Of a DNA stretch of 42,742 nucleotides, positions 2,218 through 32,392 are shown piece after piece. The translations under genes were made by a program, and so were the position numbers. The stretch comes from Monosiga brevicollis MX1. Its lineage: Eukaryota; Opisthokonta; Choanoflagellata; Craspedida; Salpingoecidae. A model generated the notes under the pieces. It was not told the DNA's origin. It did not search any database and was given only the letters and a program-made list of their open reading frames with translations. The stretch lies in the NCBI RefSeq assembly GCF_000002865.3, contig NW_001865080.1:17875-60616 (forward strand), written 5' to 3'. Position 1 is the first letter of the stretch; each line of letters opens with the position of its first letter.

Positions 2218-4260
2218 CTACGACGAGCGCAGGCAGGCACCGCCAAAGTGGCGCTGGATGTGGTCAGCGTTCATCTGATGGACCAGCGCCGCAAAGCGAC
2301 CTTTCCACCGAGGAACAAAGGCCTCATCCAGCCCCGGCTGGTACACACCACGGGCCTCGGCGCAGCGGGCGAGCTGACCAAGCAGATCCACAAAGGAGGA
2401 GGCGAACCCACCGGTTGTCGTCATCGCCGCAGGGACGATCAGAGTTTTTCCATGGTTGAAACCGGTGTAGTAGTCGCGCTTCTCCTTTTCGGCTCGGCGA
2501 AGGGCAGCGCCCACCTTGATGCAGGCTTGCGAGGTGGTCGGGGGTTGGGCTGTGCGCACAGTCACGTCAATGCCCAGGTCGGGCAGAGCTGGGCCCAGAG
2601 CACCGCCGGGAAAAGGGTTGCGGCAGTGCAGGTCGATGCGGCAGCTCTGGCCGTTGGCGTTGTAGCCAGACTTTTCCACCCAGACATGGGAGAGGGTGGC
2701 GTACCTGAGCAGGCGGCCCATCTCGTCGCGAAGGGCGTTGTGACGCTTGATGGGACGGCAGGTTAGCAGGTGCTCGCGGGTCAGTCGCGGCTGAGGTGTC
2801 TTGCTGCTGCAGAGCGGGCACTTGTCCGTCGGCTTGACGTTGATGAGTTCATGGAGGCCAAAACCCATCATGGACACGACCGCAATGGCAAAGGTCGTGT
2901 CGCTCAAGCGACGCAACTTGTCCCGACCCCGCATGGTCAAGAGTGTGTGAACATGTTCACACACCAAGACAGTGCTGACGCCCCATTCGCGTGAGGCCAG
3001 ATATGCCTGCTGCAGGTCCAGTGCACACTTGGCCATCAGGTCGTCCAGTGCCGCCTTGGAACGAAGGGCAATGATCTCAGCTGGTCGCTGAGTCGCCGCG
3101 TCCTTGACCGTGGCCATCTGGAAGCCAGCTCGCTGCACATGGACCTCAAAGTCGGCAGCCCTCGATGCATCCTCCAAAAGTCGATCGTAGACCCGAGGGT
3201 AGCGAGTGGCCAGCTTGGCCATGTTGCAGACATAAGCCACCGGACCGCGCTCAACCAGGTCGTGCAGGCCAAAGCCCCCGGTGTTGGCCCGCGTGAAGAT
3301 GCGAGCCTCCAGGAGCTGTTCCAGCGTAACGTCATGACCTTCAGCTCCGGCTGGTGCAGACAGGTTTACCTTGGCAAAAAAGGCTTTGACAAAGGTCTCC
3401 TTGCAAGCACGGTTCAAGAGCTCGGACAAGCCCGACGTCAGACTTGGGGGCAGCGTGTAGAGGTGGTTGATGAGGCTAGGCACGTACTGCATGGCCGTGA
3501 GGAGGGCCTGAAGCGAGACACCGGTCGTCAGCATGTCATTGAGCTTGCCAGCAATGTGCTTCGCCTTGTCGTTCAGCTGCTTCTTCATACACTCGCGACG
3601 GCCAATCGGCGTTCCCATGACCGTCATGCCCGTGTTGGCCGTCTCGCGCACGGCATCTGGCAAGACAGACTTGATAGCAGTGATGGAAGCCGAATGGTGG
3701 CGAGGCATGTAGAAGCGGCTCTTACTGGGCTGCAAATGAAGGCCAGCAGACTCTGCACGAGCCTTGACAATCTCGACGTCGGCCGCCACGTCCTCCGCGG
3801 GACCCATCAGTACAATGTCGTCGAGGTACTTGATGACCTTGCAGCGATAGTCAGTGGTGGCGTCGAGGAGACCGAGGACCTCACAGGAGTACAGGGCAAA
3901 GAAGAAGGGCGATAGCTCGTTGCCCTGCACAATGCCTTGGCCAACATCAATGTCAATGACCTTGAAGAACTTGTCGACAATGCAGTGGGTAGTGGGTCGA
4001 GCATAGTGTCGTTCAAAGGCGCGCAAGAGCCAGGGACCTTGTCGGCCACAATCTCGTGCAGCCGTGCTCGGTCGGTGTAGTTGAAGGCACTCTTGAAATC
4101 GAGGGAGAGCATGGTCCAGCCCGGGGTAGACTCACAGGCTTGAAGCTCACCAAAGGCCATGCCAACTGCTGCTGAAATGCCGTCCTTGACTCCGACGGCC
4201 AGCTCTGGACTGGCCTGCAGCCATGCCAAGAGACGCAGGATCAAAAACCCCTCCTTGACA
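2218..4260 (-). pseudogene. non-LTR retrotransposon: reverse transcriptase plus restriction-like endonuclease, truncated and frameshifted
   Basis: Two overlapping minus-strand frames encode one protein. The upstream frame, readable to about 4030, has RT motif A (LDFKSAFNYTDR) preceded by a GVKDG segment. The downstream frame ends at 2218. It has motif B (QGNELSPFFFALY, about 3900-3945), motif C (YLDDI, about 3820) and the following GLHLQPSKSRFY. Near its end are a CxxC...H....C knuckle (about 2760-2825) and a PDLGIDVTV / RRAEKEKRDYY block, as in restriction-like endonuclease elements of the R2 type. The frames join only with a -1 shift near 4030-4060, which I read as a one-base deletion; programmed frameshifting is possible. 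RT sequence upstream of the GVKDG segment is missing, so the copy is 5'-truncated near 4250. Confidence 0.8.
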
Positions 4261-18518: not shown

Positions 18519-19697
18519 ATGCTGATTCCCAAGGCGAACCGCAAGGCGATCTACACCCGCCTCTTCCAGGAGGGTGTCCTCATCGCTGAGAAGGATTTCA
18601 ACGCTCCCGCTCACTCTGAGCTGGCCGAGATCCCCAACCTCCAGGTCATCAAGGCCTGCCAGTCGCTCAACTCTCGCGGCTATGTCAAGGAGCAGTTCGC
18701 GTGGCGCCACTACTACTGGTACCTGACCGATGAGGGTCTCGAGTACCTCCGCACTTACCTCCACCTTCCCGCGGAGGTTGTGCCCAACACCCACAAGCAG
18801 CCTGCTCGCCCCACCGCTCGCCCCGGTCGCGCGGCTGCTCGCCCTGCTGCCTCGGGTTTCCGTGGTGCCGCGGATTCCTACCGCCGTGGTAAGCCTGCTC
18901 TCCAAATGATCCAGCTTCCACACACGCACAACTTTTGATACACCAAACAGCTCCACAACTTGTTGATACGATTGCTTTGTGGAGTGGCAATCTGCCAACG
19001 ACTTTGACATGTCCATGCTATTTTATGGCCGTGTTTGTTCCCCAACCCGCCCGAACACCAAGTGTTTCTTCTTTTTCTTGTTCATTGATGACTCAGGCAT
19101 TTGGCTTTATGCCGGCCTGTAGTGGGTCGGCACATGCTGAAAACTCTAGCTACCTTTTACATCTCTGAGAACAAGCAAAGATGACCTGTGTTGTGTTTGT
19201 GTCTGATTCTTTTTCCTCCCCGGCACGGGCAAGGCGCGTTTGGGTCTGCCTCGACCCAGTTTTGTTCCCTGATGACTCAGGCATTTGGCTTTATGCCGGC
19301 CTGTAGTGGGTCGGCAAATGCTGAAAACTCTAGCTACCTTTTATTTCTCTGAGAACAAAATCCCGCCTTGCTTGTGTCTTCGATTTGTTGGTGGTGCTTT
19401 TGTCGTTTATTCTTGTTCACTGATGACTCAGGCATTTGGCTTTATGTCGGCCTGTAGTGGGTCGGCACATGCTGAAAACCCTAGCTACCTTTAATTACTC
19501 TGAGAACAAGACAACTGATACCCATCCTTCACCATCCAATCACATGCATCGCCCTGCCGCTGTTTTTTTGCACGCTAGCTCACTCGTACTCTTCCTTGCT
19601 TTTGCTACTTTCTTCAGACGAGGGCAAGGTTGGTGGTGCCGGTCCTGGCTTCCAGCCCCAGTTCAAAGGCTCGTACGGTCGTGGTGCCTCCATGTAA
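18519..19697 (+). CDS. RPS10: 40S ribosomal protein eS10
   Basis: Two exons, 18519-18888 and 19618-19697, give 149 residues (human 165). The N-terminus [20 protein letters not shown] and the block [19 protein letters not shown] are diagnostic of eS10, a winged-helix protein of the 40S head near the mRNA path. The tail is rich in Pro, Ala, Arg and Gly and ends [16 protein letters not shown], like the GRG-type tail of other eS10 proteins. An in-frame ATG at 18504 would add MSSGT, but it lies upstream of a likely splice acceptor and the conserved protein begins at MLIP. The 729-bp intron is large for this region and carries three snoRNA-like copies, making eS10 a snoRNA host gene. Confidence 0.97.
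19077..19175 (+). ncRNA. intronic box C/D snoRNA, copy 1 (U15/snR13-like guide)
   Basis: Terminal stem CTTGTTC / GAACAAG encloses box C (TGATGA, 19086-19091) and box D (CTGA, 19165-19168). Right after box C comes AGGCATTTGGCT (19095-19106), complementary over 12 nt to AGCCAAAUGCCU, a very conserved LSU rRNA segment just 3' of helix 69. It is followed by CTTTA, placed like a degenerate D' box. A hairpin TGCCGGCC / GGGTCGGCA (19110-19132) and GCTACCTT (19149-19156), complementary to the adjoining AAGGUAGC, complete it. Human U15 carries an AGGCAUUUG guide before its own box D, hence the family suggestion. Confidence 0.85.
19260..19360 (+). ncRNA. intronic box C/D snoRNA, copy 2
   Basis: Same layout as copy 1: terminal stem TTTTGTTC / GAACAAAA, box C at 19270-19275, box D at 19349-19352. 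The guide AGGCATTTGGCT, the hairpin and GCTACCTT are unchanged. The terminal stem differs from copy 1 on both strands yet still pairs fully, which supports selection on the fold. Confidence 0.85.
19412..19510 (+). ncRNA. intronic box C/D snoRNA, copy 3
   Basis: Terminal stem CTTGTTC / GAACAAG, box C at 19421-19426, box D at 19500-19503. The guide AGGCATTTGGCT is identical. The hairpin has one change (TGTCGGCC), which turns a C-G pair into a U-G pair and keeps the stem. The sequence before box D is more diverged (TTTAATTACT). Confidence 0.85.
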
Positions 19698-29027: not shown

Positions 29028-29403
29028 GGGCGCGCGCGCTGCGCCATCCGCCAGAGCGACGTGGTGGCTGCCGTCAGTCTTGCTGCTTCCGACTCCTCGT
29101 CCTCCTCCTCCTCTTCTTCTTCTTCGTCTTGTTTTTTCGACTCCTTGTACTCTTCTCCTCTCCCTTCTCTCTCCCTCTCTTTCTCTCTCTCTTTTTCGTT
29201 GACACGAGGGACGATCTTCCGTTGATCCACCTTTTGCTCATTCGCCTCGTGTGCTGCATCGATCCTCAGGAATTAAACAGCGCGCCTTCTTCTTCTTCTT
29301 CTTCGTCGTCGTCGTCGTCTCTGATGGGGATAGGGTATTGGGCAGGGCACGTCATTTGCTTGGAAGACAAGAAACACCAAAGGCGTCTGGGTGCGGCACA
29401 GCC
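28604..29403. other. 5' flank of the acyltransferase gene
   Basis: No gene recognised. Contains a (CA)n run at about 28989-29025, CTC/TTC triplet runs near 29100-29130, a CT-rich stretch at 29155-29195 (sense strand of the acyltransferase gene) and TTC/GTC triplets at 29286-29320. Confidence 0.6.
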
Positions 29404-32392
29404 ATGCGCGCCACGGCGCAGCAAGCCCGCACCAGGGCCATGCCCTCGCTCTACCTGCTTCTGCTCCTCCTCTCCCTGACAAGGCCACTTGTATGTCACG
29501 CCAAGGTCGATCTCGATCTTGCGCGCCAGCTCATGGCACCTCAGCTGCAGGCCATTGCCAATTTTCTGGACGCTTACGATACAGCCCGGAGCACGCTCCA
29601 ACCAGCGGCGCCCTTGCCTGCCTCCTCAGCCGGCTCTGCTGCTCCAGCTGCTGCTGCCCGGGGCCCGACACAAAGCCCGGGCCCAATCATTGACAAATGC
29701 ATCTATGATCTCAATGAGCTATTCCCGCGCATCCTACCCCCCGGGGATCAAAACTTTTCCCACCGCAACCTGACCCTCAACGGCCTGCGCATGGTCGATG
29801 CCTGGGGCAAGCTTCCGGCCGGTGTCCTCACCAGCCCACCTTCCATCCAAATGTTCGGTGACTATGCCGAATGCATATCCTTGCACCCGCCGAGCATCCC
29901 ACTCCAATTTTGCATGGTGGAAGGCTTTGAGCAGGTGACCCCCAATGAAACCCATGTCCTGGCCGCTGAAACCACCCAGGTGGCCTCGTGGGGCATCTGT
30001 CTCCCACGCTCCTGCAACGAGCCCTCAGTCAAGTCCCTGGTCGACAACGCCACCGCCACCTACCTACCTGGCCTCTTCTCCTCCACCACAGTCCACTGTG
30101 CCCGCAGCCAACATGTGACTCCGGGCAATGCTTCCGTTTTCATCGTCCTCGGCCTGCTCGTCGCGCTCGTTGCTGCCGGCACCGGCCTGCACCTCTGGCT
30201 TACCCTCCGAAGCCGACTCTGGGCCCCCAAGCTCTTGCTCGAAGAGAATGGCTATGCTTCGCCCCGCGCAGATGGCACGGCCTCGAATCGCTACTCTTGG
30301 GCACGCGCTTCCGTCTCGGATGACCCCAACCAAGTAGGTGACCCCTCCCCATACCAGCGAATTGTATCCCCGCCCAGCTCTCAGCCCTCCTCCAGTGAAC
30401 CCCTCTCGCGCGACGTCTTGGTGGATCACCCCGCCAATGCCGCCAACGCCGCCAACGCTGCCACCCGTGACCATTACGCTTCCACCAATGGCCCGGTGAA
30501 CAGCACAGGCCCTGGCCTTCAGACCCGTCGTGCTGCCCCTCTGAGCAATGGCCATACTGGCAGCAACCACAGTAGCATGGAAGAGGCTCCAGTCACCGCC
30601 ACGGTGGCAACGCCGACAGCAGTTGACGTTGGGCCAAATCGCCTTGCGTCCAACTTGGCGCTCACCCGCTCTCTGCCGGGCTTTCGTCAGAAAAGTTTGG
30701 CAGCTGGGCCGGGTGCTGGTCGTGACTTGCGGCTTAGCCCCAGCACTCCGCGCTACGAATTGGATCTCGCCGCCCCGCCCACCCCAAGCGAAGAGGCAGA
30801 GGATCAAAGTCACATCGATGGCTCTTCCGAACACGCGCCACTCCTCAAACGCATCTCCTTCGACGGCCTCACTGCCGCCAGTACCCCCTTTCAGGGCATC
30901 ACAGAGCCTCAACCGCCCGCCTGGCAGCGCTGCCTGCTGGCCTTTTCGCTCCGCACAAACCTCCCGCGCTTGCTAAGCATGCAACGCAACCGCCACTCCA
31001 TCGCCATTTTTGATGGTATGCGCAGCTTAAGCATGTTGTGGGTTATCCTGGGCCACAGCTGGCTCTGGATCTTCAAACAATGGCCGCAAAACATGGTCGC
31101 CGTGATTGCCCTAGGCGATCGGCTTTCCTTTCAGGCTATCGCTGCCACCTCATACGCGGTCGATACCTTCTTCTTCATCTCGGGCTTTCTGGTCTGTTAC
31201 AGCTGCCTGACGGTGCTCAAGAAGCGCAAAACCCTCCCCTGGTTGCGATACTACCTGCACCGTTACATTCGCTTGACCCCGTCCTATGCATTGGTCATGC
31301 TTCTGTTTGTGAATCTCTCCCCTTTCCTTGGCGACGGGCCCGTCTTTTACCGCCAGCAAGAGAGCATGTCCATGGATGCTTGCGAAGGCCTCACTCGCTC
31401 GTCCTGTGGCTGCGCCAAGTACTGGTGGGCCAATTTTCTCTACATTCAGGTACAAGACCCCGACGGCAGGATCGAAGCGCGCCTCGCCAGCCCTGACCGA
31501 CTTTTTTGCTCTGCATGCTTCCTGCGGCCTCGCTTCGTAGAATTACTACCCGAGCTCAGATCCCAACAATGAGTGCATGGGATGGACCTGGTACCTGGCG
31601 CTCGACATGCAAATGTATTGGGCCAGCCCCCTCTTGCTTTTGATCCTCCACCGTCACAAGGTGTGGGGTATGATCGTCTGGTCTGTGGCCTTGCTGGCCA
31701 GCATCGTGATTCCCTTTGCACTGGCCTATCACTACCACCTCTCTGCCAACGCCTTGCCGGGCGTACCGGGGGAACATTTTACCAGCCGGACCGATCAGGG
31801 CAACATCTTTTCGCTCATCCAGAATAAGCCCTGGACGCGCATGGCGCCCTACCTCATGGGCATCATGCTTGCCTATCACCTGACTGTCCGCCACAACTCG
31901 TACAGCCCCCAGCTGCGGCTCAAGCCTGCCCTTCATGCGGCCGGCTGGGCGGTGAGTGCGGCTCTGCTCTTCATCATCATCTATTGTGCCACCGGCTTTC
32001 AAGCGCGACTGTTCGACTACAACTTTTCCCAGTTTGAGGATGCCGTCTGGATCTCCCTGTGCCGTCCTCTCTGGGCATTGGTGCTTTGCTGGATCACTTA
32101 TACCTCGGCCATGAATGCGGCAGGCTGGGTCTCAGACCTGTTGGCTGCCCCATTTTGGCTGCCTGTCTCCCGCCTCACCTTTAACGCATATCTGATTCAC
32201 CCAGTCGTGTTGAACACCTTCTTCAACAACCTCCGACAACCGATTTACTATCAGGACGGCGTGGCCATCAACTTTTTCATTGGCAACACCGTCATGAGCT
32301 ATGCTGCGGCGGGCTTGGTCGCGTTGTTGGTGGAGATTCCTTTTGCTGAGCTCGAAAAGGTTTTTACTTCCCGCAAATGGCGCAAGCCATAA
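29404..32392 (+). CDS. NRF-6-like acyltransferase 3 family membrane protein
   Basis: Two exons, 29404-31449 and 31541-32392, give 965 residues. An N-terminal signal peptide (SLYLLLLLLSLTRPLVCHA) leads to an NRF-type extracellular domain with paired Cys (CIYDLNELFP, FGDYAECISL, WGICLPRSCNEPSV) and N-glycosylation sequons. A membrane helix follows (VFIVLGLLVALVAAGTGL, about 245-262), then a 260-residue Ser/Pro/Ala-rich linker. From about 530 an Acyltransferase 3 domain runs to the end (FDGMRSLSMLWVILGHSWLW, TFFFISGFLVCYSCL, RYIRLTPSYALVMLL), with many helices. Worm nrf-6 and ndg-4 belong to this family; the substrate is unknown. The acceptor at 31540 restores ECMGWTWYLALDMQMYW, conserved in the family. 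The start at 29404 was chosen just upstream of the signal peptide; 29440 is an alternative. Confidence 0.9.

Follow-up and report, generated by a model that had tools for sequence, protein, structure and literature searches.

The eS10 gene of Monosiga brevicollis MX1 has an intron in which a repeated unit with the features of a box C/D small nucleolar RNA occurs three times in tandem. This raises the questions of whether these units are working guide RNAs, where on the ribosomal RNA they would be aimed, and how they relate to the guides already known for that site. Positions given below without a contig name refer to the window, which is the whole stretch of 42,742 nucleotides that was analysed. 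Judged from the sequence, the intron probably encodes three paralogous snR13-type box C/D snoRNAs, which would methylate the equivalents of yeast A2280/A2281 in the large-subunit (LSU) rRNA. The find is modest, since every ingredient has already been described. What appears to be new here is the presence of a U15-like RNA beside the units in the same genome, and the triplication and a D' box that lacks GA seem unusual as well.

The Host Gene and Its Neighbours

The first coding exon of eS10 (18519..18888, forward strand) carries the Plectin/S10 domain (Pfam PF03501, E 2.1e-45) and matches eS10 chains in the PDB, and the second, which includes the stop codon, lies at 19618..19697 (+). Joined, the two exons give a reading frame of 149 aa. 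They are separated by an intron of 729 nt (18889..19617, +), which begins with GTAAGC, ends with TTCAG and has a candidate branch site, CTCAC, at 19579 (+). The initial annotation had called this the only eS10 intron, a statement that holds within the coding sequence, as the joined frame indicates; a further intron in the 5'-UTR is possible. Folding also predicts a 9-bp hairpin, GCTCCACAA/TTGTGGAGT, at 18950-18985 (+), in the 5' part of the intron upstream of unit 1.

Among the PDB chains that match eS10, one set outscores another; the higher-scoring chains are presumably those of S. pombe, fly and mammal, and the lower-scoring those of N. crassa and Chaetomium. Elsewhere in the window, a CCT-epsilon fragment at 13365-14486 matches two groups of PDB chains, which we take to be mammalian and yeast, with scores of up to 624 and 478 bits, respectively. 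A reverse-transcriptase fragment at 2218-4026 (-) matches RVT_1 at 36 bits and is probably a retroelement copy or remnant. At 29251-32392 (+), an NRF N-terminal domain is followed by Acyl_transf_3 over two open frames, with a presumed intron, and this is an architecture that we assume to be animal-like. Two kinases of the window resemble SLK/STK10 and MNK, and Chitin_synth_1 has one match in the genome, at 35.3 bits (cut-off 25). Taken by themselves, these proteins suggest an opisthokont outside the Dikarya, perhaps a unicellular holozoan, and speak against a filamentous fungus, which had been considered at first.

Anatomy of the Three Units

All three units are on the forward strand. Each begins with one arm of a terminal stem, followed by box C (TGATGA), CTC, a 12-nt antisense element AGGCATTTGGCT, TTA and a 9-bp apical hairpin. 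The 3' half continues with one base, ATGCTGA as box C', eight bases, a second antisense element of 8 nt, GCTACCTT, another eight bases, box D (CTGA) and the other arm of the stem. In unit 1 (19077..19175), box C occupies 19086-19091, the guide 19095-19106, the D' box CTTTA 19105-19109, the hairpin 19110-19132, box C' 19134-19140, the accessory element 19149-19156 and box D 19165-19168. The same elements lie in unit 2 (19259..19361) at 19270-19275, 19279-19290, 19289-19293, 19294-19316, 19318-19324, 19333-19340 and 19349-19352, and in unit 3 (19411..19511) at 19421-19426, 19430-19441, 19440-19444, 19445-19467, 19469-19475, 19484-19491 and 19500-19503. The distance from box C to box D is 83 nt in every unit, terminal stems of 7, 9 and 8 bp in units 1, 2 and 3 close the two boxes, and both antisense elements are invariant and in the same register throughout. 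The initial description of three tandem box C/D copies with stem, boxes, hairpin and invariant antisense is thus confirmed in all of them. The accessory element was also considered as a guide for box D and was rejected, because its end sits 8 nt upstream of CTGA.

The internal boxes depart from the consensus. Box C' (AUGCUGA in the RNA) has one mismatch to RUGAUGA, a C for an A, and the D' box CUUUA, which had already been described as degenerate, lacks the GA found both in the consensus CUGA and in the yeast box UCGA. Owing to these changes, the C'/D' motif is short of one sheared pair. In the predicted fold of the naked units, the terminal stem is present in all three and the apical hairpin in copy 2 only; the structure made of terminal stem and apical hairpin alone has -16.0 to -17.4 kcal/mol, compared with minimum energies of -29.3 to -31.0.

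Since one intron would have to yield three RNAs, cleavage in the spacers would be needed, for end-trimming alone should not part them. Splicing, debranching and spacer cleavage would then produce RNAs of ~100 nt, shielded at the C/D terminal stem. A predicted 6-bp hairpin in the spacer between units 1 and 2 (19241..19258, +) abuts the start of unit 2, for which it may possibly be a processing signal.

Conservation Among the Copies

In an ungapped alignment of the three units, 89 of 101 columns are invariant. The 12 that vary all lie outside the 40 columns that make up boxes C, D', C' and D, the guide and the accessory element (p about 0.0015), while four of the eight columns directly upstream of box D vary (p about 0.006), the regions having been picked in both cases after seeing the data. 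This pattern indicates that the guide and the accessory element are constrained and that a box-D guide is not. Because half of the box-D guide slot varies, the D' guide would be the sole guide of the units, and their box-D side would guide nothing.

The 70-nt flanks of the units resemble one another no better than shuffled sequence in any of six comparisons, in each of which between 99 and 284 of 300 shuffles did as well as the real pair; units 2 and 3 are separated by just 49 nt, and two of the six flanks consequently reach 21 nt into the neighbouring unit. The earlier remark that the spacers are unrelated is therefore borne out. Also present as first described are a change in the terminal stem of copy 2 that keeps the pairing (C-G to T-A) and a wobble in the hairpin of copy 3, although covariation across the three copies is not significant, being matched by 170 of 500 shuffles. 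It is conceivable that the units are decaying or unexpressed tandem duplicates, alike through gene conversion instead of selection, and their pairwise identity of 89-91% in global alignments would agree with this. Such an origin is highly improbable, however, given that the changes spare every box and antisense element and that the flanks are at background level; the compensatory stem change points the same way but is by itself not significant.

When unit 1 was used as a DNA query against the 39.5-Mb genome, only the three units matched. The looser pattern TGATGA-N(0,20)-GGCATTTGG occurs at nine places, namely the three units and six others, and at five of these six (the place on C44 was left out) box D, stem and accessory element are not found together. 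Among the candidates rejected as further units, that in L015 has CTGA and a 5-bp stem but no accessory element, and that in L014 has GCTACC but lacks a CTGA within range. The exact pattern TGATGACTCAGGCATTTGG has no match in viral contigs and two in bacterial and archaeal genomes; one of these appears to lie in a bacterial coding sequence and the other near a tRNA, and both were set aside as chance.

The Target in the LSU rRNA

The reference for pairing was an 84-nt LSU segment printed in PMC12180492, which is vertebrate and is not the host's own LSU. Most of this segment, through AAATGCC, has also been used as a Metarhizium PCR primer (PMC9489797). In the assembly, a search for the host's rDNA found no exact LSU 17-mer, one match with two mismatches to a 19-mer and no 5.8S; without an exact 17-mer or a 5.8S, the rDNA seems to have been left out of the assembly. 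The genome contains two U2 snRNA matches above the cut-off, at C49:43326 and C41:435868.

The units are complementary to the printed vertebrate segment over 12 nt in the guide and 8 nt in the accessory element. The D' guide AGGCATTTGG would pair over up to 12 nt with AGCCAAAUGCCU in the LSU rRNA, and the accessory element would clamp the overlapping LSU sequence AAGGUAGC. In the segment the guide target occupies positions 45-56 and the accessory target positions 40-47, and the LSU stretch opposed to the antisense is AAGGTAGCCAAATGCCT. The accessory target had been described as directly adjoining that of the guide; in fact, the two overlap by 3 nt, and their union is the 17 nt first proposed. 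When unit 1 and its ends (19073-19180) were shuffled base by base 5000 times, a single shuffle reached an antisense match of 12 nt to the segment. When unit 1 minus the guide was shuffled 50000 times, 372 of the results had some complementary 8-mer that adjoined the guide target or overlapped it. The view that the units would be aimed at the LSU AAGGUAGCCAAAUGCCU segment is thus supported. This stretch holds a methylated A common to Arabidopsis, human and yeast (PMC3511168), and comparison with published sequences places it inside the R2 target DNA, overlapping the I-PpoI site (PMC12180492; PMC6294500).

Which adenosine would be addressed depends on how the D' box is read. The fifth pair upstream of the 5-nt box CUUUA is the last A of GCCAAA, whereas that upstream of the 4-nt box UUUA is the middle A; these are positions 51 and 50 of the vertebrate segment, the equivalents of A2281 and A2280, respectively. 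We infer the yeast numbers from the 7-base spacing between the last A and the G that is equated with yeast 2288. Fibrillarin at the C'/D' motif (AUGCUGA with UUUA or CUUUA) would methylate the A2280 equivalent, by way of the 4-nt box, and/or the A2281 equivalent, by way of the 5-nt box. The initial annotation had the units aimed at the same adenosine as U15 and snR13, which is too simple in view of the two readings and of the separate U15-like RNA described below, although the target is indeed akin to theirs.

A Separate U15-Like RNA

The pattern GGCATTTGNCTGA, a box-D version of the guide, occurs at four places in the genome, and only the place at C15:158534, where the sequence is GGCATTTGTCTGA, is accompanied by a box C (with one mismatch) and a stem. 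The RNA to which it belongs lies 121 kb away from the units. The corresponding 144 nt, C15:158408-158551 (L026 1375-1518), match SNORD15 (RF00067) at 49.1 bits (E 7.9e-10 in a search of 231 bases), which falls below the gathering score of 75. With this score, the mismatch in box C (GTGACGA) and a stem of 4 bp, the RNA is called here only U15-like. At the fifth pair, its D' guide TTAGATGACGAG faces the G2288 equivalent and its D guide ACGAGGCATTTG the A2281 equivalent. The same layout has been described for Arabidopsis U15, where box D serves the A site and D' serves the G site (PMC8053127). By eye, from the list of open reading frames, the U15-like RNA lies roughly 0.8 kb downstream of the apparent end of an AP-1 mu gene.

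When unit 1 is aligned locally with the U15-like RNA, the best match covers only the 12-nt guide stretch, which argues that the units form an additional snR13-like system and are not U15. The units could nonetheless be redundant helpers of U15, if both they and the U15-like RNA guided the A2281 equivalent only and the triplication served dose. The 5-nt reading of the D' box agrees with this proposal, as it leads to the very base of the U15-like D guide. The proposal is quite improbable given the restricted alignment, the position of the unit guide at D' rather than D and the failure of SNORD15 to match the units, even if all of these are compatible with a common target.

Because the target of the unit guide overlaps that of the U15-like D guide (positions 48-59 of the segment), the units and the U15-like RNA are not expected to bind simultaneously, and ordered binding or a division of labour is likely. 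The same overlap would suit units that bind the rRNA but no longer methylate it, with the 17-nt clamp acting as a folding chaperone or competing with or timing the U15-like RNA. A degenerate C'/D' motif with a D' box that lacks GA would be understandable in such a clamp, as would the unchanged guide and accessory element in all three copies, and the U15-like RNA already guides the equivalents of A2281 and G2288. Nevertheless, loss of methylation is unlikely. The register of guide, D' and C' is identical in the three units, as it is in snR13, where an odd D' box is active (PMC5389607), and in Arabidopsis ordinary guides often have extra pairing and degenerate D' boxes occur beside assigned guides (PMC8053127). 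The initial annotation had gone further, regarding the second element as a sign of something more like a folding chaperone than a simple guide. The element is no pointer to such a role, which is possible but not required: extra pairing has a precedent in yeast snR13, so the seemingly chaperone-like contact corresponds to a known accessory-guide arrangement.

More tentatively, two guide systems might serve one rRNA stretch, with the U15-like RNA acting on the A2281 and G2288 equivalents and the units either adding A2280 or clamping 17 nt in competition with it. If the clamp version were true, the dose of the units would be tied to a ribosomal protein. More generally, such an arrangement would imply that guides of the U15 and snR13 types are able to coexist, and that they perhaps did so before animals and fungi each kept one.

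The probable reading of the units as snR13-type guides has points against it as well, namely that no Rfam family matches them, that the D' box lacks GA and that the U15-like RNA covers one of the two adenosines. Even so, the units are very likely genuine guide RNAs of a kind already known, in an unusual combination. Their anatomy, complementarity to LSU rRNA and conservation favour the original claim of functional guides in a ribosomal-protein host gene, whereas their expression, processing and methylation, and the adenosine chosen, are what we infer from the sequence. A genome with both a U15-type and an snR13-type RNA lends itself to examining how neighbouring sites are shared out among guide RNAs, and whether an odd D' box together with accessory pairing decides which of two adenosines is marked.

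Comparison With Known Guides

When scanned with Rfam, the window, the intron and unit 1 all stayed below threshold, and what matched at E up to 10 was at chance level. The covariance-model search named in the initial annotation as a check for box C/D RNAs thus went against the units, which no Rfam family, snR13 and SNORD15 included, matches credibly. Across the whole genome, the snR13 model (RF01223) has a single match at E up to 10, which lies elsewhere and scores 20.4 bits (E 8.68, cut-off 47). In the absence of an RF01223 match, the units are called snR13-type by their anatomy and not as members of that family. The snR75 model likewise has no match above threshold in the genome; its best, 17.6 bits at C15:158414, falls on the D' side of the U15-like RNA.

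Extra base-pairing of the kind seen here is well represented among C/D snoRNAs. In Arabidopsis, extra pairs have been described at 45 of 104 assigned sites, with 7 to 15 bp and more than half of them adjacent to the guide pairing (PMC8053127), and overlap between guide and extra pairing has been described for yeast (PMC5389607). The units likewise have a second antisense element beside the guide target, and both its 8 bp and its adjacency are within the described range.

U15 (SNORD15) is similar to the units in that its antisense, AGGCATTTG in the Rfam consensus, is directed to the same LSU site, and the snR13 and U15 families share the Rfam clan CL00045 (PMC3511168). It differs in that its guide for the A site belongs to box D and that for the G site to D', whereas the units have no conserved D guide and do not match RF00067. 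The snR75 / N. crassa CD7 type (RF01185) acts on the same part of the LSU rRNA, at the G2288 equivalent close by (PMC2780460; PMC3511168), but with a different guide, and in this genome that G is faced by the D' guide of the U15-like RNA.

The closest likeness is to snR13. In yeast, a single D' guide with overlapping UCGA/CUCGA boxes methylates both LSU A2280 and A2281, and full methylation depends on additional pairing that overlaps the guide region (van Nues and Watkins, PMC5389607). Double marking is not general, since in Arabidopsis methylation is reported at only one of the two sites that snR13 marks in yeast, the position-5 site and not the position-6 site (PMC8053127). The D guide of the U15-like RNA is a misfit in this respect, as it maps to A2281, the position-6 base. 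Homologues of snR13 in filamentous fungi include N. crassa CD1, an intronic RNA with a D' guide for 26S-Am2242 (PMC2780460), and T. rubrum TRnc_338, which is also intronic and assigned to Am2267; TRnc_4316, in a 5'UTR, is filed as snR13 too, with no target listed (PMC3890542). No mention of snR13 was found in passages of PMC3596301 and PMC5640933. Among the listed matches in the open-licence literature, titles and the first lines of abstracts mention neither three snR13-like RNAs in one intron nor U15 beside snR13. The triplet is unusual beside N. crassa, where snoRNA genes are mostly singletons (PMC2780460).

The units differ from snR13 in their three tandem copies within one eS10 intron, in belonging to a genome that is probably outside the Dikarya, in the U15-like RNA of the same genome, in a D' box of CTTTA instead of CTCGA and in the lack of a match to the Rfam model. 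They share with snR13 the D' guide, the same LSU adenosines, an odd D' box of 4 or 5 nt and an accessory element that overlaps the guide target, and with its two homologues CD1 and TRnc_338 their intronic position. This likeness is one of function-like anatomy only, and it is possible that the units and snR13 have converged on the same target.
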